NCBI GenBank assembly: GCA_012845835.1
Contig: JABAKD010000016.1
Coordinates: forward strand, 19,883,196-19,947,195
DNA: 64,000 nucleotides
From: Undaria pinnatifida
Taxonomy: Eukaryota; Sar; Phaeophyceae; Laminariales; Alariaceae
Direction of reading: 5' to 3'
In this document: one piece after another, positions 6,844-21,800 of the stretch
Layout: the number at the start of each line of letters is the position of its first letter
Position numbering within the stretch: the first letter of the stretch is position 1
The notes under the pieces: generated by a model
What the model saw: only the letters and a program-made list of their open reading frames with translations
The model's database searches: none
Told to the model about the DNA's origin: nothing
Translations under genes and position numbers: made by a program

Positions 6844-9800
6844 GTGAGAGAGTGTATGATCCACGAGGTGGCACAGTCTTTCTCAGTGGTCATCCGTTGG
6901 GCCTGAGGTGGTTTTCGGGGGAAAGCAAAGTGTTTTTTGATCTTGCTTTGTGTGGCGTTTCTTTTCAATCCAGCGCGGTGATCGTTCCATGGCGCAAACA
7001 TTACATTAGCCACAGCAGTCGCTTAGCACACCCGCCGAGCACCTGCAGTACCCTATGGCACCCTAACCCACCCTCGCATAGCTCCGCACCGGAGGGGCGT
7101 ACCCCCGGTACGCTCGAGGGGACCCTCTCGGGGTTGCAGGTGGGCACTCCTTTTGGTGCTCATCCTTGATCTCGCCCTCCTCCCCTTCCGCCTCCCTTTC
7201 CCCGAAAACTCCGCCGGCGGTAAACTTTATTTTCTTATCAACTGGTGTTTAGAGCGGTACGTGCGAGGTGCAACGGTCCGTACAGACAAAACGCCCTCTA
7301 TGCACTTGTACTGTGGGATGATATTTCAGCACCATGCATTTTGGCTAACACCGGCAGCAGCAGCTACCCCCACCTACTAGTTTTTGCATAACAGCGGGCG
7401 TGCAACTTGATCGTACGGCAGCAGTGATCACCAGTATTCACCACTAGTATAGCATAGAGCACTTGCAACGGCACCGCCAGGTAGGCACTTGCGTCTACAA
7501 AACGGTAGACGTAAAATCGGCCGAGAAACTGCATACAACGCAGTGCATAGGGCTGCGATTCGGCAGGATATCACGACTAATAAAACGAAATCGCTAGGCT
7601 ACTAGGCTAGGCAAGCCAACGAAGCCTTCTGCCTGTGACGGTAGACGGCACGTGGGTTGGCGAAGCCAGTGGTGACCGATGTGCCGGCCTTCGTCAGGAG
7701 GGTGCAACGAGCAAAAATCGCATCGCCCGCGAGCAGCAAGCAGGAAACGCAGCACTGCCACCACCACTAGCGGTATCAGTAGTCCCGGTAGATGAAGAAA
7801 GCGCTATGCCCGTAGCGGGTAGCCCGATTTAAGAGCACCTCGTGACAAGCCGAAACAAGCTCTCTTGTTTATAGCCACCAGGTATGATACACACAGTGCT
7901 AGTTGTTCAGCATTTCCACTGCTATTAGAATAGCCGATTGAGTCTTCAGATTTGGTGGGTATCATGCGTACCTCAAGGTTGTACTCCCATCAATATCTGG
8001 GCACTGGCAGCCTCCATCAGTAGATATTTACGAGAACTGCGTCAGTATACTGGAATGTATCAGAGACCTGACCCGCCACCACCATGGGTTCGGCCGTAAT
8101 TAAAAACTATGCAGTGTGTAAACCATTAATAACTGTGTTCGCCTGTGGTAACACCTCCCCATTCCCATCTCCAAGAATGCCTGCTGTACACCAATTGAGT
8201 ATTGATCGCGAATTTCAGCCCACCACATAGCGGCGATGGGTTTGACGGCGCTGAAAAACTACAAACGAAGAGCGCTTTACCTGCTCGCGCGTGGTGTAAC
8301 CCCCTCCGCCAGCCCGCCCGCCCGCCCGCTCCCCCCATCATGCTATATGCGAGGACATTTCTTGACATTTCCAATCCACCACCGCCATGGTCTCAAACAT
8401 TCTACCAACCACGTCTACACTCAACCTGTCCGTGCGCACTGCACACACGTTGAAGGATCCCCCCCCCTCGTCCGCTGCGCTCATTCGCTATTACCTTGCC
8501 CTCACCCCTCGTCGCCTGCCCTCATCCGGCCTCCCCTGCCCTCAGCCCCATTTCCCTGCCCTCAACCCCCTTGCCCTACCCTCACTCACATCTCCCTACC
8601 CTCAACCCCCTCTTCCAACCCCCCCCCCACCCGTTCGTCTTATCCCACCTATGGTTGTCTCCCCCCCGCGCACCCCCTCTCTCCGCCTCTCACACCTCCC
8701 CTGTCATCACCCCACCTCCCCCCCCCCCTACCCCTCCACGCTCGTCTCGTCCTATCTAGGGTCGCCCCCCCCCACCACAGCACGACGCAACCCCGGCAGT
8801 GGCCGTATCTGCCATGGTGGAGCTCCTCCACCCCCTCCCGGCTAACAGCGTACCCGGTGCAATCAGGAGCTGGTTCCCGGGCAAGTACCATCACGCCTGC
8901 GTAGAGCGTGCGCGCGCCACCGGCGACCCTATCGCCGTCCTCATTGCTGAAAGGGTGGTGTCTGCTGCTGCAACTGCTGCTACTGCTGGCACTGCCGCTA
9001 CGGTGGACCCCCCGGGGATGGTTCTGGGGAGGGTTTTGGGGGAGGGAGGCTCCGGCTGTGTCAGGATGGTGTCCATGCCGGACCTTGGGTTCACCGGCGC
9101 CATGAAAACCTTAAAAGCGGTGAGATAGCTCGATTTTCTTGAGCGTGTTATTTCTTTAGAGTTGTACCCGCGTTTTTTTTTCACAAGCTATTTCCGAAAA
9201 TAAACCCGATAGGCTTACGAACTGTTTTTGTCTTCGGGATACCCTCGGAATCACGTGCTCCATGAAGACATCCAAGGCGGTGAAACTTGACAAGTGATAC
9301 CATGAGGCCGGTCGCCCCGGTGATGTATCAGATTATCCTCGAGCTTGGTATAGATCATTTCCGTGAGTTCGACCCCCCCCGAGTGCATACTCGCATGAAC
9401 TCGGAGGGATTTTTTCTTGCGCACAAATTGACTGGCGGAAAGCGCGAGAGCGTGAGTTAGCAACACTCGATGAAAAATGGGCGAGCAGTGGGATTGCTGA
9501 ACCCTATGCGCGATAAAACGTTGAAGGCAAGAACCGGGGGGGGGGAGGGACGACACTTGTGACTACGGCTTGTCCAGAAGCTGGGAAATCGAAACGTTAA
9601 AAAAAGAAAAAAAAAAAAACATAGAGGTAGCCCTTTTTCTTTTTGGCCAGAGTAATTGTGAGTGGTTACAAGTCGGGGTCCTCGAGTGAAGAGCTCCCCG
9701 ACATCGTTGGATTATATAGCGTTTATAATAGCAGTAGCAGCAGTTGTGTTTGGGCGCGTCTGCGATAGCGATATCGTACTGCTGTAGCAATTTTGTCTGA

Positions 9801-12800
9801 AACGTGTTCTGAATCACGGGACTTCTTAGCCCACAATCGTCGGAATTTTCGGATTTATTTTGCAATTGTTTTCGTGGTGTACCTACGGAGGCCATGGAAT
9901 TGTTCATTGGATATTGTAGCAGTTTCATCTTTTTCCCATTTCAGTTTTTGGGAGAGTTTTTTTTTCTTTTAGAGCTCCTCTCGAGTGAGGAGCATCATGA
10001 AATAATCGGTACACCTCTATTCTGCCGTACCACACTACTGCCTTCGGCCTGCCCCGTCCTTGGGGTGGGCCGAGGAAGCCCGCGAGGACCTGCAGCGGTC
10101 TAGCGGCAGTCACACGGGCATCGAGCCTCGGGCTGGGTAGAGAGGGAACCTTGCGCGGTCTGGCTAGTGAACTGCTCACTCTAAGGACCGCGTGGGGTGG
10201 TGGTGATGGGTTTTCTTTTTAACCCCGACGCCGAGGAGTTTATCCCCGGGGCAGGACGGGTACATCACCACAGCAGAGAGCGCAGCGTGGGCAGCTTGGG
10301 GAGTGGAGAGGCTGGCCACCGCGTGGGTACGCATGCACGACAGGAAGGATGGGAGTGTCGGCGTTGGCTGGGACGGCTGCACCCAGCCAGCGGAAACCAA
10401 GGCGCGAACCGGGCTACGAAACGGAGAGCCACAATCATCACATTAATAGAGAGAAAAAAGAAACAACAGAAACAGAAACGGAGGAGGGGACGAGCCTCTC
10501 GTCGGCTGGCCGAGAAAGCAGCACGCGAGACTCGTAAGAGACGGAAGGCGGCACTTGTGGCGGTAGCGACCTACAACGTACGTACCCTGGCCGTAAAGGG
10601 GAAGAACGGGTATGGGCATGACGAGCGTGTACTGGCGAAAGGCCAGCAACTCGGCTGTGACTTCATTGGCCTGCAGGAAACTCGACGGCCCGGCAACACG
10701 AGATTCAGTGCAGCTGGATACCAAGTTTTTTGCCCAGGTCAGGAAAAAACAGCAGCGAGGCAAGGGCTGTACGGAGTAGGTCTAGCAGTTAAGGACTCAA
10801 TATGCCGTAAGTCTAGGTTCACCCAGCAGTTCATTGACGAACGGCTTATGTCTATGCGCTTTGAGTTGGATGGTCGATGCGATGCTGTTAATTTCGTCGT
10901 TGCGTACGCCCCAACTGATTGTACCAAAGACACCAAGCTGAAAGGTATTTTCTGGCAAAAGCTGGAGGACCTGGTTGAACAGATCCCCACTAAAGAGTGT
11001 TTGTTTGTACTGATGGATGCTAACGCGCGAACTGGGCAGAGGATGGAAGGGTGCGGTGATGATGAAAGTAGGGTGCTTGGAGCATACGGACGAGATGCTC
11101 GTAGCGATAATGGCAAACGACTTTTGTCGTTCGCTACCAATTGCAAGCTAGCTCTCACCAACACATTTTTCAGCACGCGCAAGGGTGGGATATGGCATAC
11201 GTACAACGGCACCAGCCCGAATGACCGTAAGAGGATAGACTACATCCTAACCCGCCAAGCCCATCGACCTAGAGTACATGATGTTAAAGTCATCCCACAG
11301 CCTCCGCCACCAGCTAAGGCCGATTCAGACCACAACATTGTGTACATCAAGGTCCGACTTAGTGGTCACTTTTCGTCCAACAGAAAAATGCTGAAACCCC
11401 CAAAACGCCGAGAATTCGACAGGCAGCTTTTTTTATCCGACGGAAAGCGTCGCCAACGAGTAATCGCGAGGGTTGTTTCCACTCTCAACCAACCTATCCA
11501 GCCCCGTAACACGTCTGGCATGGTTGAGTTTTTCACCACGACTATCATCGATGCTGTAGAGAAAGAGGTGCCACCTCCACCACGTCGCCACCGCCGGCAT
11601 GGTTGGTGCGAGCCTGCCGAAACTTCGGCCGCTTTCAGAGTAGCATGGACAGCGAGGGAGGATGCGAGACAGTTCTTGCGTGCCAACCCCCGAGATAGTG
11701 TAGCGTGGAAGAAATTGAGATCTGCGTGTGCGAATCTGCAGGAAGTGGTTGCCGCAGGAGTACAAGCGTACTTTGAAGAGTACCTCGCCGAAACCGAGAG
11801 ACTCCTAGCGAGTAACGATCAACGAGGGTTCTACAAGCACCTGAAGAGTACGGTGGGATTGCAAGGTACAAAAGCGAGGAGCGAGCAGTTTAGTATGGAC
11901 GAGGATGGCACGTTGTTGCGGGATCAAGCGCGAATTCGTGAACGATGGGCGGGGCACTACCACAAACTCTTGAACACGAAATCGCTGAAACTCGATCCCA
12001 CGATCATCGACCTCTTACCACCGCGACCGATTAAACTATCGCTTGGAGATGAACCATCCATGGACGAGATGACGGATGCGATTAAGGGCATGTCAAATTG
12101 GAAAGCCGTTGGACCAGACGGTCTCCCGGTCGAACTACTAAAACTTGACCACCCCGCTTTCGTCCAGTGTTTTCACAATATCCTTGTCAACGTGTGGGTA
12201 ACGGGCGAAGTCCCCCAGCAATGGAAAGATGCTATCATCAAGACCCTTCACAAAAAAAAGGATCGAACTGATTGCAACAATTACAGAGGGATCTCGCTTG
12301 TTGCCCACGCAGGCAAAATATTGTTGAAAATCGTTGCGTCCCGCCTTAGCAACTACTGCGAGACCGAGGAAATACTTCCTGAAGAACAGTGCGGCTTCCG
12401 TCCCGCACGGTCGACGGTCGACATGCTGTTTGTCGTGCGCCGGTTGCAAGAGCTCGGACGACAGAGGAAAATCCCCCTGTACATGTGCTTCATCGATCTG
12501 CAGAAAGCGTACGACTCTGTCGACCGGGAACTGTTGTGGGAGGTACTCACACGCCTTGGCGTACCAACCAAGATGCTTACAGTTATCCGCAACTTCCACG
12601 AAGGCATGCGGGCTCGCGTGCGTGCGGATGACGGCGAGCACTCGGATTGGTTTAATGTCACCCAGGGGCTGCGGCAAGGCTGCGTGCTATCACCGTTACT
12701 GTTCAACGTGTTCTTCGCTGCTGCGATACACGTCGTGCTGGTACGCTTCAGCAAAGACGAAAGCATCGTAAGGGATTTGGTTCACCTCGAAGAGGGCAGT

Positions 12801-15800
12801 GTAGTCGGAAAAGAGGAACCGTTGGCATGCGTGCAAAGGGCTGTGTGGGGCATGTTGTACGCAGATGACGCAGGAATTGTTTCGAAGTCGGCGGAAGGCC
12901 TTGCTAAAATGATGACAGTCATCGTGACTGTCTTCGAAGCAGCAGGCCTCACGGTATCGGCAAAGAAGACAGAGACGATGCTGCTACGAACACCGGACCA
13001 GACATCCCTCGCCCCACCGCTCGCGATCGAAGCATCAGGCCAGAGGTATAAACAGACGACCCAGTTTTTATACCTAGGCGGCATTATCCACGAAAGCGCT
13101 GACCTCTCGCTCGAAATCGAACGACGGATCCGTCTCATGCGGGCATGCCTCAAACGGTTTGGCCCGGAATTGTATGACAGGACGACCGCCCCGCTTAGTC
13201 TGAAAGTCCGCATGCTGAAGGCCGAGGTCATTGAGACCCTGCTGTACGGGTGTGTGACGTGGACCCTCAATGCGGACCACTTCGCCAAGCTCCGATCAGC
13301 CCACCACGAAGTCCTTTTGCGAGTCATTGGCTTCCAGCGCCGATTACGCACCGACCACACCACCCTCTCGTACGCGAAGGCCCTCAGGATGACACGATGC
13401 GAGAGCATCGAAACGACCATCCGTAAACGGCGGCTCTTCTTTGCCGGGGCCCTGGTGCGACAACACAAGGGGCGACTGCCCCGTCGGTTGATGTTCGGGA
13501 CGATCGCTGGTGGGGAGAACCCGAAACCAGGCGGACAACTTAAGACTTGGCCTAGAGCCATAGCTGAGGACCTTAGGGTGTTCAAAGCCAACGAGGGATC
13601 AACGGAACACTCCCCCTTAGTTTTTGGAGTTGGGACCGCGCTGTGGCCCACTGCAGCAAAAAAGGTGGGCAAGTGGTACCGGGGGGTCCTCGAAGCAGCT
13701 GAACGGTTCATGGGCAGGTGGCACGAGGATGAGGCAAAGCTGAGTAGACAGCGCCGCGCATCCGCCGTGGGTGGTGTCGAAGGGAACGGGGGAAGGGGGG
13801 GCAGCAGGAGGGGTAGAAGGAACACCGCCCAAGGGTATGGGGGCAGGGGGGGGGACAGGAGGAGTAGAAGGGAAACCGCGGTAGATGAAAGTAGGAAGGA
13901 GACCGCAGACAGGGTAGCAAGGTACCAGGCCGACTAGTAGGTGGAACCTTTCTATCTATGCCACTCGTACCGCCAACTGCTGCGGCTGCTCGGAATGTGA
14001 TGTCTTGGTACTTTGATTTTTCCGTGAATTTATTTATTTTATTTTATTTTATTTTTTTCTTTCCCCTTCTTATCCTTATGAAGGGAGTCTTGCATGGTGG
14101 GTAGGTGACGAGCCTGTTTTATTTGGCCCTCCCAGTCTTCCTTCTTCTACTTGTTTCTTTTTTCCGGGGTATTTTTTCCCTTTCTTTCCCCCTTGCATGT
14201 CCATTTTGGCTCATGCTCGGGGTATGTTTCTATCTCCCGTGCTTTGGCTCCCCTTTTTATTTATTTATTTATTTATTTTGTCTTGGTTTCTTTCGTTGTT
14301 TCTCTCTTTTACAAGGTATTTTGGTTTAATGAGAAGAACACAAAGGGGGGAGGGGGGGAAACAGGAGGAGTAGAAGGAAAGCCGTCCAAGGGAATGGGGG
14401 CAGGGGGGGCAACAGGAGGAATAGAAGGGAGACCGCGGTGGACGAAGGCAGGAAGGAGATGGCAGACAGGGTAGCAAGGTACCAGGCCGACTAGTAGGTA
14501 CATAGCACTTTTCGTCTTTCTCTGGGGTATTTTTTTTCCCCTTTGTTCCCTCCTTGCGTGTCCAGGTTTTTGGCTCGTGTTCGGAGTATCTTATTTTGGT
14601 TTTACTTTACTTTATTTTATTTCATTTTATTATGTTTCTTTTCCGAGCTTTGGCTCTCCTTTGCGGTTGGGTTGTTTCTTCGATTTCCCCTTCATTTTGT
14701 TTGTTTCATTTTTTGTTTTATTTTTATCTTTGTTTTTATTTGTTTTCTTTTTTTGTTTTTTGTTTTTTGTTTTTTGTTTTTTGTTTTTTGTTTTTTGTTT
14801 TTTGTTTTTGTTTTTGTTTTTGTTTATTTCTTATTTCTCTCTTCCAATGTATTTCTGTTGCTGACGTATGTATGTTGTGCCTGTCGTACCCAGTACTAGG
14901 GCATGACATTGCGTTGTCGAATGCATTACGATGCATTATCTCTGTGTCGTGGCTTGTGACCACAGAGCTGATCTTTCTAGGGTGAAGAATCAGTACGGAC
15001 ACTGGGTGTGCTGGATGTCGACGAGTAGAAGAACGGTTTAATGTGAAGAACACACACACACACACCACACGTCGGTTGCCAATACTACTGATATTGTGGC
15101 CAGGCCGTGTCATTGCTCACTGAGTTGCGTTTTCATCGTTTCTCTCAAGGTCGGTTTTGGATGGACAAGGTATACAAGTACCACGGCAATGGAAAGATCC
15201 TCAGAAGAGAAGCCGCAGAAAAATCGCGTCATACAAGTATGAATGTATTTGCTACTGCTTTGAATGTTGTCATTCGTACTGTAGTACTCTTTATATACCG
15301 GCCAGTTTGTTGCTTGTCATCCGAAGATGTGCACAGCATGAGCTTCAACGTAGATCACTCCTGCTATAAAACTACTATTTAACACTCCCAGGGACGAAAT
15401 TGTGGTGGTGATGGTGGTGATGGTGGTGATGGTGATGGTTGTGATGGTTGTGATAACTTTCTGATTGTGAGGCATTGGACCTGCTTCCGCGGTGCCTACA
15501 TCCTGTATGTACAAGTACATCCTGTATGTACAAGTACATCCTGGCACCCGGGTCACGTTCTCGTGTAAGTTTTTTTTTTTTTTGTTTCGCTTTTTTGATT
15601 GTGTGTCTGCTCGCGGCCGCAGGCATTGCTTCGTACCTTCCTTACGTCATACCTCCGTTCTTCCCTCCCTTCTTCTGATAATACTTATTTCTAGTTGTCG
15701 ATGTTGAATCTCACGCTGCTCCTTGTAGCATGAAGAATAAAAATTCCGGTGCCACAGGTGCAAATAAATATAATTACGGTAAGAGAAGCTCAATATGTTG

Positions 15801-18800
15801 CAGTATCTCCCCTAGCAATCAACATGTTCACGCTTGGCGCACGCGAGATCTGCCTGGTCGACGAAACTCCGACGTGCTCCGTGCCGGCATTGTAGGGATG
15901 CGAGAGTATGCGCATGAAATGAGTGCACCCTCGCCCGCCCTCCCCTCATGGCACCGTGCACCATGGTCCTTCTTACCGTTACTTGAACACATCGCACAGG
16001 CGACATCATCCCTCCTATTGATGATCTTCTGAAGATTTGCGTCTTTCAGAGAAGGCCGATCCCTGCGCTGTATGGTCTGCGTTGCCTATACAAAGATCAG
16101 GTTGCCGGGTGGAATCCGGATGCTATTATAGCACATAATTGCTGGGGTGGATTTGTACTACACCGATCCTGCACTACACATCATGCCCCGACAGATACAT
16201 GATCTGTTTCACCTATCCCTGAGGTCCACTGTAAATTGGACGAAATGAAACACGATAAAGGCAGCATCTCCACCTTTCTCAGTCGAGCTGAAGCTGTCCT
16301 ATGTGACGACTGGTCTGTACTCGTGTGGGGGCTCTGTATAGCCGTTCAGTCAACCGGGAAACGAACATACTCTCGAATGAAAACTAAAAACAAACGGGGA
16401 TATTTCTTCCCTCCCCACCGTTGTTTTCTTGTCTTTCATCAGACTAACTACGATAGATATCCGTAAAATAGATCACCTAAAGCGTGATCTGTCCGATGTG
16501 TGGTTACTTGACCATCTAGATCGTGATTTGTCCGATGTGTGGGTACTTCAAAAGACATGCTGTATATGATGTACCTGTGCGTATGCCCTTCAATCCCCCA
16601 CCGACATCCAACCAAGGGGGCGATGGAGGCGACATGTCGGGCGTCATGGGGTTCCGCCGCATGGGCATGTTCAGCTAGGTGGAAGTCCTGATCACGTGAC
16701 CAGGACTTCCACCTCGCTGAACATCCCCATCCGGCCGATCCCATTACGCGCGACGTGTCGCCTCCATCGCCGCCCTGGTTGGATGCCGGTGGGGGATTGG
16801 GAAGAGCATAGGCACAGTACAACACATACAGCATGTCTGCTAAAGTTGACCTCACATTGGACAGATCACGATCTACTGTACACCGATCCTGCACTACACA
16901 TCATGCCCCGACAGATACATGATCTTTTTCACCTATCCCTGACGTCCATTGTAAATTGGGCAAAATGAAACACGATGAAGGCAGCATCTCCACCTTTCTT
17001 AGTCGAGCTGGAGCTGTCCTATGTGACGACTGGTCTGTACTGTTGTGGAGGCTCTGTATAGCCGTTCAGTATACCGGGAAACATACTCTCGAATAAATGC
17101 TAAAAGCAAACGGGTATGTTTCCTCCCTCCCCACCGTTTTCATCTTGTCATTCATCCGACTAACTATAGTAGATGTCCGTAAAATAGATAACCTAGCGTG
17201 ATCTGTCCCATGTGTGGTTACGTGATCATCTAGATCGTGATCTGTTCAAAGTGTGGTTACTTGATAATCTAGATCGTGATTTGTCCGATGTGTGGTCACT
17301 CCAATAGACATGCTGTATACGGTGTATCTGTGCGCGTGTGCCCTTCCTAATCCCCCGCCGACATCCAACCAGGGTGGCGATGGAGACATGTCGCGTGCCA
17401 TTGGATTCGGCCGGATGGGCCTGTTTGCGGAGATGGATGTCCTCATCAGGTGAGGATGGGGCAGGGTTTTTACTTTTTTATTTTGCGTTATCGTTGCTGT
17501 TGCTGTGCAGCTCTTTGTCTTTCAATTTCATTTTCGAGCGCAGCGAGATTCCAATTTCCGACAATGTAAAACAATAGGGGCTGACCCCTAGACCCGCATG
17601 CCCGCTTTTCTATGCGTGTTTTGGTGCGTGCGCGTCCCATTCGACGACCGGGATCAGAATAATGGCTAGTAAGGTGGTAAACGGGGCACGATTCCAGCAT
17701 CTTGTCGGTTTTGGTTGGGCTGGACTTGGTTGACTCGGGTTGGGTTGGGTCTTCGCTGCTTCCCACCTATGCACATGGTTGACACCAGTTTCAAACATTC
17801 ACCAGCACGAATCCTAGCGAGGGTTGCAGTATATTTGCGTTACCGCTGCTGTTGATGTGCAACGCATTGTACTGTATAATGTTTCTATTGCATGGCTGCT
17901 GTGGTTGTTGGTGGTGCTTAGCGCTTTGTCTTTCGATACTATCGAGTTACTTCTGCTGTTGTTGGTGTGCAGCGCTGTTGTCTTTTGTTGTTATCGCGTT
18001 CGTGGTGCTGTTGCTGTGCAGCGCTTCGTCGCTATTAAGGTTTTTTTGCCGCTCGACAATGTGCGGCATGACTGAGCTTCAACGTCGACCACTCACATTT
18101 TTTTCCAGAAAGTGAAAGCAGCCTAGGGGATTTACCGCTGCACGGTAGAAGTCCCTCTGTAGTGGCGGTTGTCTGCTACCCTGTAAAATCGCTGGCGTAG
18201 TATCTATTAATAGTGACATGTGCTGTGTTATATTGTGCTGTACTATTGTGTATCGTGTTGTGCCGTGCCTTGCGGCGGTGCCACACGCTGCGACTTTTAC
18301 TGTGCTGTGCTTTGCTGTGCCGTCACGTGTTGCGCCGTACTGTGTTTTAAGGTACTTGAAAAAACGCACCCACAGCAGTCTTCCTTGCCTCCCCTCCTTA
18401 GCTATGGACCCAGCATCATCCATTTACCTTTGCTCGTTGTCCCTATTCCTTATTCCCCCGCCCCTACGTATTCACCCGAGCCTGTTATCCCACCGCTATC
18501 CCTTGTCCCTATTCCTATACCCCCCCGCCCGTCCTCCTACGTTGATATTTGTTCGCCGTGCGTAGGATGCCGGACCACCCCCATATCAACCAGGCGCTGG
18601 GAATTAATGATACCGACCAGAACAACTTCTGGCTGGTGTACCCGCTGGCTGACGGGGATCTTTTGGAAGACATCGCCAAACGGACCAAAATGGTCGAGAG
18701 TGAAGTCATGCGGTGAGGTTGACTAAGAAAATATAGCATATTTATTCCAGTCTTGCCTTCCAAGGTCGTTGCCATCGTCGTTTCGTTTTTTTTGTTCCTT

Positions 18801-21800
18801 TTCCTGGTATACATCACGAAATGTCTGCCATGTTTGCCATCCTTCAATGTGCAGCAGCACGAGCTACAATGCCGATTACGCGTACACATCCACATAACGT
18901 AGAATCAAGCCAACACGGGGAATTCACGAAACGAGGGATCTAATTTTTGTTGCTCGGATTGCTGTTGTATGGTCTCCCTCTACCATCAAAAACAAGTAAT
19001 ATCTTGAAAAAATAAGAAACGCTTTCAATTTCCACCCCCTACCCCCATCGATATATCCCCTGAGCAGTTTTTTTTTTGTTCCGGTAATAAGTACCATGGT
19101 AGGTGCTGTTGTCGGAACGTCGTGTAGTTGCCGTTATGTTTGCTATCCGACAGTGTGCAGCATGTCATAATCTTCATCGGCGATCACTCCTGAGCATTAT
19201 TGTTATAACATCATTGTTCCTATTATGTTGTTGCTGCTGTTGATGCTATTTGTTGTTTGTTGTTGTTGCTGCTGTTGTTGTTGTTGTTGTTGTTGTTGTT
19301 TTATTGCTGTTGTAGCTGCTGTTGCTGTTGTTGCTGTTGTTGCTGTTGCTGCTGTTTGTTGTTGTTTGTTGTTGTTGTTTCATTGCTGCTGTTGTTGTTT
19401 TATTGCTGTTGTTGTTGTTGCTGTTGTTGCTATTGTTGTTGATGTTGTTAATGATGTTGTTGATGTTGTTGTTGTTGGCGCTGCCTCTGCCGCTGCTGCT
19501 GATGTTGTTGTTGTTGTTGTTGTTGTTATTGTAATTGTTGTAGGTTATGGTGTTCCGTCTGGAGAGGATGGGTGGCCAATAGTTACATGACTACAAGGCA
19601 TGCAATGGATGAAGACGCTCCCCCTCCTCCCGCCTCCCGTCCGACCCCCCTACGGACTACGGCAATGCATGACAATCGTAACACCTCCCCCTCCCCGTCT
19701 CCGCTGAATCCCGGCAATGCTTGCAGCCTGGTCATCGAGGGCGGCACCGGGGCTAGCTGTATGCATGACAACGGTTACGTGCACAACGACATAAAGGCTG
19801 AGAACATCTTAGTCTTCTCCTCCGGCCCGGGTACCAAAACAACGGGCAAGATAGCGGACCTTGGCCTGGCCCGTGGTGAGCGAAAAACAATGAGGAGTGG
19901 TGCAGTGTGTGCTGTGGTGTAGTGTGCGGTGCTGTGCTATGACGCTGTGGTGTGGTGTGCTGTTGTGTCGTGTGCTGTGGTTTTTCTGTTGGCTTCGGGA
20001 AGCGTTCTGCACGGGATGGAGAAAGACGGTGGGGTGGCGGCGGGGGGAGCAGGGGTAGGAACGGTACGTGTGCAATAAAGTGGTTGGATGGTTTAGGTGT
20101 ATGCATTTATAAACTGCAGTACGTCTTTATTAGCTCGGAGATGTCCTTCCCCTGCCACCGCCGTTACCGATTATGCCATTGTGACTTGTTTCCGTTGCCG
20201 CTAACGCCATCGCCGCCACCGCAGCCATCACCACTATTTTGGCCGAACGTAACACTCTCGCCCCTACTTCCGCCTTTCCTTTTGGTACCCGCGTCCATCA
20301 ACTTCACACCAACACGGCGTGAAAACAACAACAACAACAACAGCGATCGGTGACATGCGGCGAGGGGGAACTCTCGGGGGAACTCCGCCCGAAGCAATGC
20401 AGGGTAGACAGGTTCCGTGCCATCCCAGTCAGGACGTTTTCGCCTTCGCGCACATGGTCCTTGTTTTGGTGGCGAAGGTGGAGTGTAAATTCGCCAACAT
20501 GTTTGCTAGCCAGGTGAGTGTTGTGGTGGGTTGGCGCGAGCTTGCGAATTCGACCGTCTGGACATTGAATGGTGGATAGGGAAGAGTAGGGAAGGGTAGG
20601 GTAGGGCAGGGTAGGGTAGGGTAGAGTAGGGTAGGGTAGGGCAGGGTGGGGTAGAGTAGGGTAAGGTAGGATAGGGTAGGGTATGCTATGGTAGGGTAGG
20701 GTACGGTAGCGTACGGTAGGGTGAGGTAAGGTAGAGCAGGGTAGGGTAGGGTAGAGTAGGGTGGGGTAGGATAGGGCAGGGTAAGGTAAGGTAGAGCAGG
20801 GCAGGGTAGGGTAGGGTAGGGTACGGTAGGGTAGGGTAGGGTACGGTAGGGTGAGGTAAGGTAGAGCAGGGTAGGGTAGGGTAGATTGGAGGAGGCTTTG
20901 GCAAGGATATAGCGTGTCGACAAAGGACATTGCGGGGACTTGAACCCCACATCATGCGGTTGTTAGAGATTAATCAAAACCAGTAAAAGCCGGCGGTCGA
21001 CACTGGGGGTTATTTGAACTCCACATTCCGCTTTTGTAAGAGATACAGCATGACCACGGAGCTATGGTACCCACCAGCGCTGATTGCTAGCCCGTGGTCG
21101 TGGTTCATCTCTAGCATTGCGAGCAAGTCATCAGACGCGATGAACAACATACGAGTGCACTGTGTTTTGGTCCTTCTCCAGGTCACGCCAAGCCGTCACG
21201 TTGCCCGCCTTGGTTTAGGGTTTAGGGTTTGAGCGTTGGGGTTTGATATAATTTCCGGCAGTCATCACAACCGGGTTAGCTTGTTTGTCACCTCGTGATG
21301 TCGTCGTCGTGGCCGAATAAATTTCCTTGCCGTCGTGTAAATCCCTTCATTACCACGCAGTTACGTATTCGTCATATTAATTTTGTCGTCGTCGCTGAGT
21401 GAAATTTGATCGTCGATACATGGTACGTATCATTCGTATGTACCTTAAAGGTCTTCAGCTCCTTCTGTCTTTCTTTGTCACCGCGTACAATCCGTCCTCG
21501 GCGCGGCGAATAAGCAACTAAAAAACCCTCCTTTGTCGCCCTTCGCCACCGGTGACCGGTTCCTTGTCCCTCGTTGCTTACAACGTTAGCTTTGCATGAC
21601 GGCGGACGACAAGAGGCGGTTGGTGGCTATGGATGCCGAGTCTGCAAGGATCTACATCGTGAGTTAGCCCGCGTTGTTGCCAGGCTGGCAGACCCTTCCC
21701 CCCCTTCTGCCTTTGTTGCTTACAATAACGTGTGTAATCGCTGACACTCCGATTTGGCTCAAAATCTCACTACATTTTCTCTTCCTTAGTTATTTCCTTC

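Follow-up and report, generated by a model that had tools for sequence, protein, structure and literature searches.

An inverted triplication of a helix-C exon, probably made by template switching, in four paralogous kinase genes of Undaria pinnatifida

Upstream of the exon that encodes its helix-C Glu, a protein kinase gene of the brown alga Undaria pinnatifida carries two further copies of that exon, one of them inverted, which raises the questions of how a direct-inverted-direct series came to lie within one gene and whether the additional copies take part in its expression. The window (the whole 64,000-nt stretch that was analysed, C22:19883196-19947195) belongs to a 511-Mb assembly of 68 contigs, which was searched for relatives. 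A type III polyketide synthase exon elsewhere in that assembly matches PDB 4b0n, the Ectocarpus enzyme, at E 2e-52 and differs from it at 4 of 91 residues, as befits a brown alga.

The host kinase gene and its three exon copies

The host gene is composed of four exons in the window:

8814..9119, + strand: kinase exon 1 (Gly-rich loop, beta-3 Lys), ending in phase 0 and followed by GTGAGA
17373..17449, + strand: working exon 2, copy B (helix-C Glu), donor GTGAGG
18566..18712, + strand: kinase exon 3 (beta-4, hinge)
19727..19875, + strand: kinase exon 4 (HND catalytic loop, DLG)

Exons 1, 2 (B), 3 and 4 form a single open frame that matches the Pfam Pkinase domain (PF00069, E 4.6e-17), in agreement with a sequence-only reading of the window in which B (17373-17449) had been named as the working exon. 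The translation contains the motifs GAMKTLK, FAEMDVL, HNDIKAEN and ADLG, which we take to hold the beta-3 Lys, helix-C Glu, catalytic Asp and DxG, respectively, and the host gene thereby has both the domain and the key residues of a eukaryotic protein kinase. Its best PDB matches are Ser/Thr kinases, e.g. calcium-dependent kinases (best E 4e-9). As a correction to that reading, 9119 is the last base of exon 1 and 9120 the first of the intron.

The copies extend across 16159-17449, within intron 1 up to exon 2, in the layout XY / Y' / XY, where X is present in two copies and Y (~178 nt of proximal intron and exon) in three. The XY repeat unit, at ~540-575 nt, is larger than the 77-nt exon plus flank that the sequence-only reading had taken to be duplicated. 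Its parts are:

16159..16517 (start may be 16156), + strand: X_A, upstream intron segment, copy 1
16518..16615, + strand: Y intron part of direct copy A
16616..16695, + strand: exon-like copy A, in which the helix-C Glu codon is replaced by an in-frame TAG and the acceptor AG is off by one base
16692..16699 (axis 16695/16696), no strand: palindromic axis TCACGTGA, a perfect 8-mer
16696..16774, - strand: exon-like copy A' (inverted), with a 1-nt deletion and AG/GT dinucleotides retained on the minus strand
16775..16875, - strand: Y intron part of inverted copy A'
16870..16884, no strand: second junction, inverted Y into X
16879..17231, + strand: X_B, copy 2 of X
17232..17270, + strand: additional 39-nt repeat unit, in B and not in A
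17271..17372, + strand: Y intron part of copy B, acceptor AG at 17371-17372

Copies A and B are 80.7% identical across 584 aligned columns (E 3e-162), A and A' 84.1% across 364 (E 1e-103, a self-match of 16517-16875 in which each arm is counted twice), and A' and B 78.2% across 188 (E 1e-34). When only the exon parts were compared, the observed score was reached by 0/500 dinucleotide shuffles in all three pairings; the segments align better than shuffled sequence, and the proposal of three copies of the helix-C exon segment is borne out. The symmetry axis had been put at 16697/16698 and lies two bases upstream, at 16695/16696, separating the exon-like parts 16616-16695 and 16696-16774. This is the sole self-inverted pair among the 39 repeat pairs listed for the 64-kb window (at least 60 nt, at least 80 bits). 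The 8-mer TCACGTGA itself occurs once in the window against 0.99 expected, and the corresponding place in the B exon reads TCAGGTGA, while past the exon donor the sequence beyond GTGA is single-copy. Since the arms differ by ~16%, the inversion is no recent read-level fold-back artefact. Within the gene, the three Y intron parts are about equidistant (odd sites: A 7, A' 8, B 6), and X of A and B are 94% identical over 204 nt, a value higher than for Y or the exon. The 39-nt repeat unit in X/Y (17185-17334) is dispersed over many contigs, sometimes with several neighbouring matches.

Paralogs and the probable order of events

A search with the kinase protein located exon 1 in at least five close genes (P1-P5) and three more distant ones (K1-K3), with weaker matches beyond. 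The close genes all lie on contig C22, where P1 is the window gene and the others are found at 20.105 Mb (P2), 19.720 Mb (P3), 19.521 Mb (P4) and 19.492 Mb (P5). The layout of the window gene is repeated in three of them: the order is A, A', B in P1, P2 and P3, and P4 has A, two inverted copies (I1, I2) and B. In P5, X, the Y intron part, the exon and the intron after it form a single contiguous run, the 3,701 bases across intron 1 of this gene contain no further copy, and the regions of K1-K3 (6.4-9.7 kb) contain one credible exon-2 match each. Thus the event is not private to this gene and is older than the split of the four paralogs. Because P1-P4 share both the layout and the second junction, and P5 and K1-K3 have a single exon, the triple most likely had one origin, later than the split from P5 and earlier than that of P1-P4, this being the simplest account.

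The kinase cluster (C22 19.48-20.19 Mb) consists of two inverted halves, with P5, P4 and P3 on the minus strand and P1 and P2 on the plus strand, and members of at least two other kinase subfamilies lie between these genes. Exon B of P4 has lost 12 nt, in frame, from the beta-3/helix-C loop. Exon 1 of P5 has an in-frame TAG as the second-last codon before the donor, so P5 may be dead or spliced differently, and may be a poor outgroup.

The junctions differ between the paralogs in a way that suggests an order of events. P1 and P2 have GATCTACTGTACACCG at junction 2; in P3 a single base just upstream is changed, and P4 is altered further. At the axis, P2 and P3 have inverted TGATCAAGTGA arms that enclose a 12-nt spacer (AACTGGAGTGGG), and the axis is spacer-free in P1 (TCACGTGA) and in P4 (ACACGTGA, core CACGTG). 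In P4, I1 meets I2 at TGGG, the four bases with which the P2/P3 spacer ends. Homology at the junctions, taken without a chance control, amounts to at most TA/CTA at junction 2, the self-complementary arms at the axis and TGGG at I1/I2. The spacer-free axes of P1/P4, set against the 12-nt spacer of P2/P3, together with the extra inverted copy in P4, point to a second fold-back at one spot, and at least two fold-backs make the simplest account. The sequence-only reading had suggested a template-switch or fold-back origin from the near-palindrome at the junction. That origin is supported by the sharp junctions, the palindromic axis and the inverted middle copy; the palindrome is present, but is secondary and not a trace of the original event, as P2 and P3 have the 12-nt spacer.

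We therefore consider it likely that the four paralogs share a triplication of old date, made by template switching and modified by a second fold-back in the P1/P4 lineage, and that the extra copies are silent. In an ancestral kinase gene, a template switch during replication would have copied the distal part of intron 1 and exon 2 (XY), turned at the 3' end of the exon and copied Y backwards for ~178 nt to give Y', and then returned to where X begins and copied XY once more, leaving XY / Y' / XY in one intron. Later gene duplication would have produced at least four paralogs inheriting this layout. In the P1/P4 lineage a second, shorter fold-back at the same axis would have removed the spacer and added another inverted copy, which was retained in P4, while in P1 the two inverted copies I1 and I2 probably collapsed. 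Only B would be spliced; A and A' would be silent pseudo-exons, and the copies may have exchanged some sequence.

In trees of the exon (14 copies), the Y intron (13), X (9) and a concatenation, the copies of one gene never group together. The B copies form one group throughout, with support of 99 (exon), 92 (Y intron) and 97 (X), and the inverted copies form one group on the Y intron (support 93). P1_A and P4_A are joined on the Y intron (support 91), the A copies being otherwise poorly resolved, and the short exon tree has A and I intermixed, with P2_I/P3_I adjoining B (support 52). The P1 inverted exon groups with P4_I1 (47) and the P1 inverted intron with P4_I2 (44), a split that a collapse of I1 and I2 predicts, at weak support. 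On X the A copies are not one group and P2_A and P3_A are closer to the B group (support 57). This last result, with the unequal A-B identity of X and Y, would suit two independent events, a tandem duplication of XY and a later insertion of an inverted Y. We regard that order as unlikely, given that both junctions are recognisable in P1-P4, that the three Y intron parts of P1 lie at nearly equal distances, which is the prediction of one event, and that the intermediate is found in none of the five P genes examined. Because the A-B likeness of X exceeds that of Y and the exon, a single age for all parts does need later conversion of X or uneven rates. As a separate candidate, homogenisation of the arms near the axis was considered, where 9/11 informative sites with A=A'≠B fall in the last 29 nt (Fisher p 0.004); it was dropped because P5 has A/A'-like states there, and a conservative-change simulation on the same tract gave 0.038, too weak to lean on.

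Capture of the exon by a mobile element that was then inserted is barely credible. The dispersal of the 39-nt repeat of X/Y on many contigs would favour it, but among the best 35 candidates from a search with the B region (575 nt), long X/Y matches are confined to the C22 kinase cluster, and the matches off C22, among those listed, all fall within query positions 292-424, the zone of the 39-nt repeat. Moreover, the XY unit ends at an exon border and within a repeat, and terminal repeats were not noticed, short of a dedicated search. As for relatives outside this genome, matching the kinase protein against viral_contigs gave 1 pattern match with 0 confirmed, and against genome_contigs 22 with 0 confirmed; the X pattern had 0 matches in viral_contigs, and Rfam gave 0 families at gathering score on the window.

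The triplication favoured here resembles the DUP-TRP/INV-DUP class of human genomic disorders, which the accessible part of PMC10766186 describes together with palindrome instability and the ODIRA model. Shared with that class are the direct-inverted-direct order, with a triplicated next to a duplicated segment and an inverted middle copy between two direct ones, and the presence of two novel junctions, at which homology may be short or lacking (PMC10766186). The Undaria rearrangement is sub-kilobase rather than much larger, and is old and inherited via gene duplication; nor does it have the two-sided 1-2-3-2-1 flank, as X is duplicated upstream only and the far side shares at most 4 nt (GTGA). 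As only one flank is duplicated, we do not assign it to the class. ODIRA likewise gives inverted triplications with palindromic junctions that rearrange later, but in the part of PMC10766186 available its yeast junctions form at short inverted repeats 40-80 nt apart, in contrast to the 12 or 0 nt here (a spacer of the present sequence, from which the original state could differ), and the yeast amplicon contains a replication origin, where the present unit is too small to assume one. For the second event, the closest known counterpart would be short-range template switching, as in the mutations of great apes treated in PMC7954356: the P1/P4 event would have run ~106 nt backwards and returned at short homology, on a likewise local scale. 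One genome holds the outgroup P5, the spacer form (P2/P3), the spacer-free form (P1) and the added-copy form (P4), a series that is rarely available and that lets the order of fold-backs and the decay or persistence of the palindrome be read directly.

Probably silent copies and the predicted hairpin

The splice sites and frames of the copies differ by class. A has its acceptor AG one base out of place in P1, P2 and P4 and has lost it in P3, and the frame has a stop in P1 and a 1-nt deletion in P2 and P3, being open in P4 (lesions in 3/4 genes); judged by its sequence, A looks dead. B has an open frame and AG/GT in all four genes. An open frame with AG/GT is found in three of the five inverted copies (P2, P3 and P4_I2), a 1-nt deletion being common to P1 and P4_I1, and an inverted copy cannot be an exon of the host transcript, as it lies on the wrong strand. 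The loss of frame or splice sites proposed for both extra copies is seen in A here, and A' has a 1-nt deletion with AG/GT kept.

Inclusion of A, with either acceptor and with or without B, leads to a stop after 122 or 126 residues, and skipping of exon 2 to a stop after 115 residues. The predicted joins thus agree with the earlier view of a failed exon duplication in which inclusion of A or skipping of exon 2 gives a product with a stop, and the sequence lends no support to alternative splicing of the extra copies. A duplicated exon within an intron is also the starting point of mutually exclusive exons, but those call for two intact exons with usable splice sites on the transcribed strand, whereas here one copy is inverted and the direct copy, by its defects in P1-P4, is non-functional in sequence.

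Codon counts for A and B cover 3/6 pairs per class, P3 being left out as near-identical to P2 (P3_B = P2_B). Synonymous/non-synonymous changes are 1/4 (P1-P2), 1/4 (P1-P4) and 1/7 (P2-P4) for A, the first two pairs including one stop each, and 5/1 (P1-P4), 6/1 (P2-P4) and 2/3 (P1-P2) for B. There is no sign of constraint in the three A pairs counted. Six of the ten I pairs give 5/3, 2/4, 2/6, 0/2, 7/6 and 4/3, and since the changes are so few no constraint is claimed on I.

The inverted arms would also allow a long stem in the pre-mRNA, and this A/A' hairpin might be the working element, feeding small RNAs or controlling the use of exon B, which implies an inverted-duplication small-RNA locus sitting inside its own target. 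The predicted pairing is strong, with an A:A' duplex of -277 kcal/mol, where 100 shuffles of one arm give -91 +/- 7.5, an A':B duplex of -262 against -94 +/- 7.3 for shuffles, and a predicted stem with 308-332 paired bases in 4/4 paralogs. Ectocarpus miRNAs inside protein-coding genes are mainly intronic, yet the same account, in the part available, reports no evidence of their origin from protein-coding genes (PMC4513859). The distance between arms is 0.142 within genes (5 pairs) and 0.154 between genes (15 pairs). Because the arms are no closer within than between genes, the pairing of the stem is seemingly not maintained by selection, and a working hairpin appears improbable. Allen et al. 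2004 reportedly derived MIRNA genes from inverted duplication of target sequence; the foldback arms here do resemble a coding exon as in such a locus, but they are not co-evolving (0.142 vs 0.154) and do not show its maintained complementarity.

Divergence of the working exon

With P5 as outgroup, the working exon has changed more than its own silent copies. Lineage-specific exon changes are more numerous in B than in the silent partner in 9/9 comparisons, with p<0.05 in 6/9, the comparisons not being independent. The counts are 13 vs 4 (A, p 0.049) and 9 vs 3 (I, p 0.15) in P1; 12 vs 2 against both A and I (p 0.013 each) in P2; 12 vs 2 (A, p 0.013) and 12 vs 0 (I, p<0.001) in P3; and 10 vs 7 (A, p 0.63), 8 vs 3 (I1, p 0.23) and 10 vs 2 (I2, p 0.039) in P4. 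No such excess is seen in the Y intron, and in X it is found in P4 (20 vs 5, p 0.004) and nearly so in P1 (16 vs 6, p 0.052), with none in P2 and P3. In a hand-framed alignment of the exon, B stands at a distance of 0.28-0.32 from P5 and the A and I copies at 0.16-0.25; in the Y intron the corresponding distances are 0.22-0.23 (B) and 0.21-0.33 (A, I). Relative to P5, B has 10, 10 and 7 synonymous changes (P1, P2, P4), where the seven A and I copies that were counted have 2-8; non-synonymous changes are similar (10-14 in B, 9-14 in A and I). Because the excess is mainly synonymous, it is better explained by a burst of mutation, or by conversion from a kinase outside the sample, than by adaptive change. 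The excess is nonetheless odd for a working copy and counts against our best explanation.

A second pattern concerns possible exchange between copies. Over five comparisons, the exon has 10 sites (6 distinct) where I equals B and differs from A and P5, against 2 (1 distinct) where A equals B, and in the Y intron the relation is reversed, with 3 (1 distinct) for I=B and 9 (3 distinct) for A=B. The excess in the exon would make exchange between I and B possible there. Taken furthest, it could mean an active cassette, with A, A' and B serving as helix-C exons that alternate with or replace one another, as the open frame and AG/GT of A' in P2, P3 and P4_I2 might allow and as the exon shuffling known in brown algal immune-receptor genes might suggest (PMC11378527, in part). 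We find a cassette very improbable: the Y-intron count is opposite, inclusion of A brings a stop or a frameshift, A' is on the wrong strand, and the exon states in common are found for B in more genes, which suggests transfer from B to I and not from I to B. The shuffling described for ROCO receptors in the accessible part of PMC11378527 differs further in using direct, in-frame exons, a different process from the inverted copy here, and neither "inverted" nor "antisense" occurs in the available text of that paper. Among the entries listed by literature searches there was no report of a comparable inverted exon copy, which is weak evidence of novelty.

In another reading, A' would not be debris but would exchange sequence with the expressed helix-C exon across the inverted repeat, and the duplication would have freed that exon to diverge. 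If true, the regulatory helix in a family of brown-algal kinases would owe part of its diversity to an inverted exon copy within the gene. We give this very little credence and place low weight on I-B exchange, because the Y-intron sites speak against it and the excess of B relative to P5 is mainly synonymous. For the old triplication with apparently silent extra copies, it is the staged paralogs and the fast-changing exon B that would raise the finding above a curiosity.

A LINE-type ORF (10185-13937; endonuclease and reverse transcriptase) lies inside intron 1 of P1; its protein gave 61 pattern matches in viral_contigs, 0 of them confirmed. By exon spacing the intron measures 8.25 kb in P1 and ~3.3 kb in P2-P4, and from this difference in length the ORF looks private to P1 among the four. 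Two pairs of diverged collinear repeats (294-528 with 9364-9580, and 2060-2271 with 9804-10018) are probably 5' parts of related LINE copies.

Finally, the tail of exon 1 (the beta-3 Lys segment) has a copy at 9243-9283, ~120 nt into intron 1. Its local score alone is not significant (52/500 shuffles reach it), but the copy is made more convincing by its conservation in eight paralogs. The surrounding block is alignable in 8/8 genes (P1-P5, K1-K3) with CCATGAAGAC in every one, and GGGATACCCTCGGA is present in P1-P5 and K1 and altered in K2 and K3, with a donor-like GCGGTGAGA in P5. This segment is an older duplication, and possibly a functional one.
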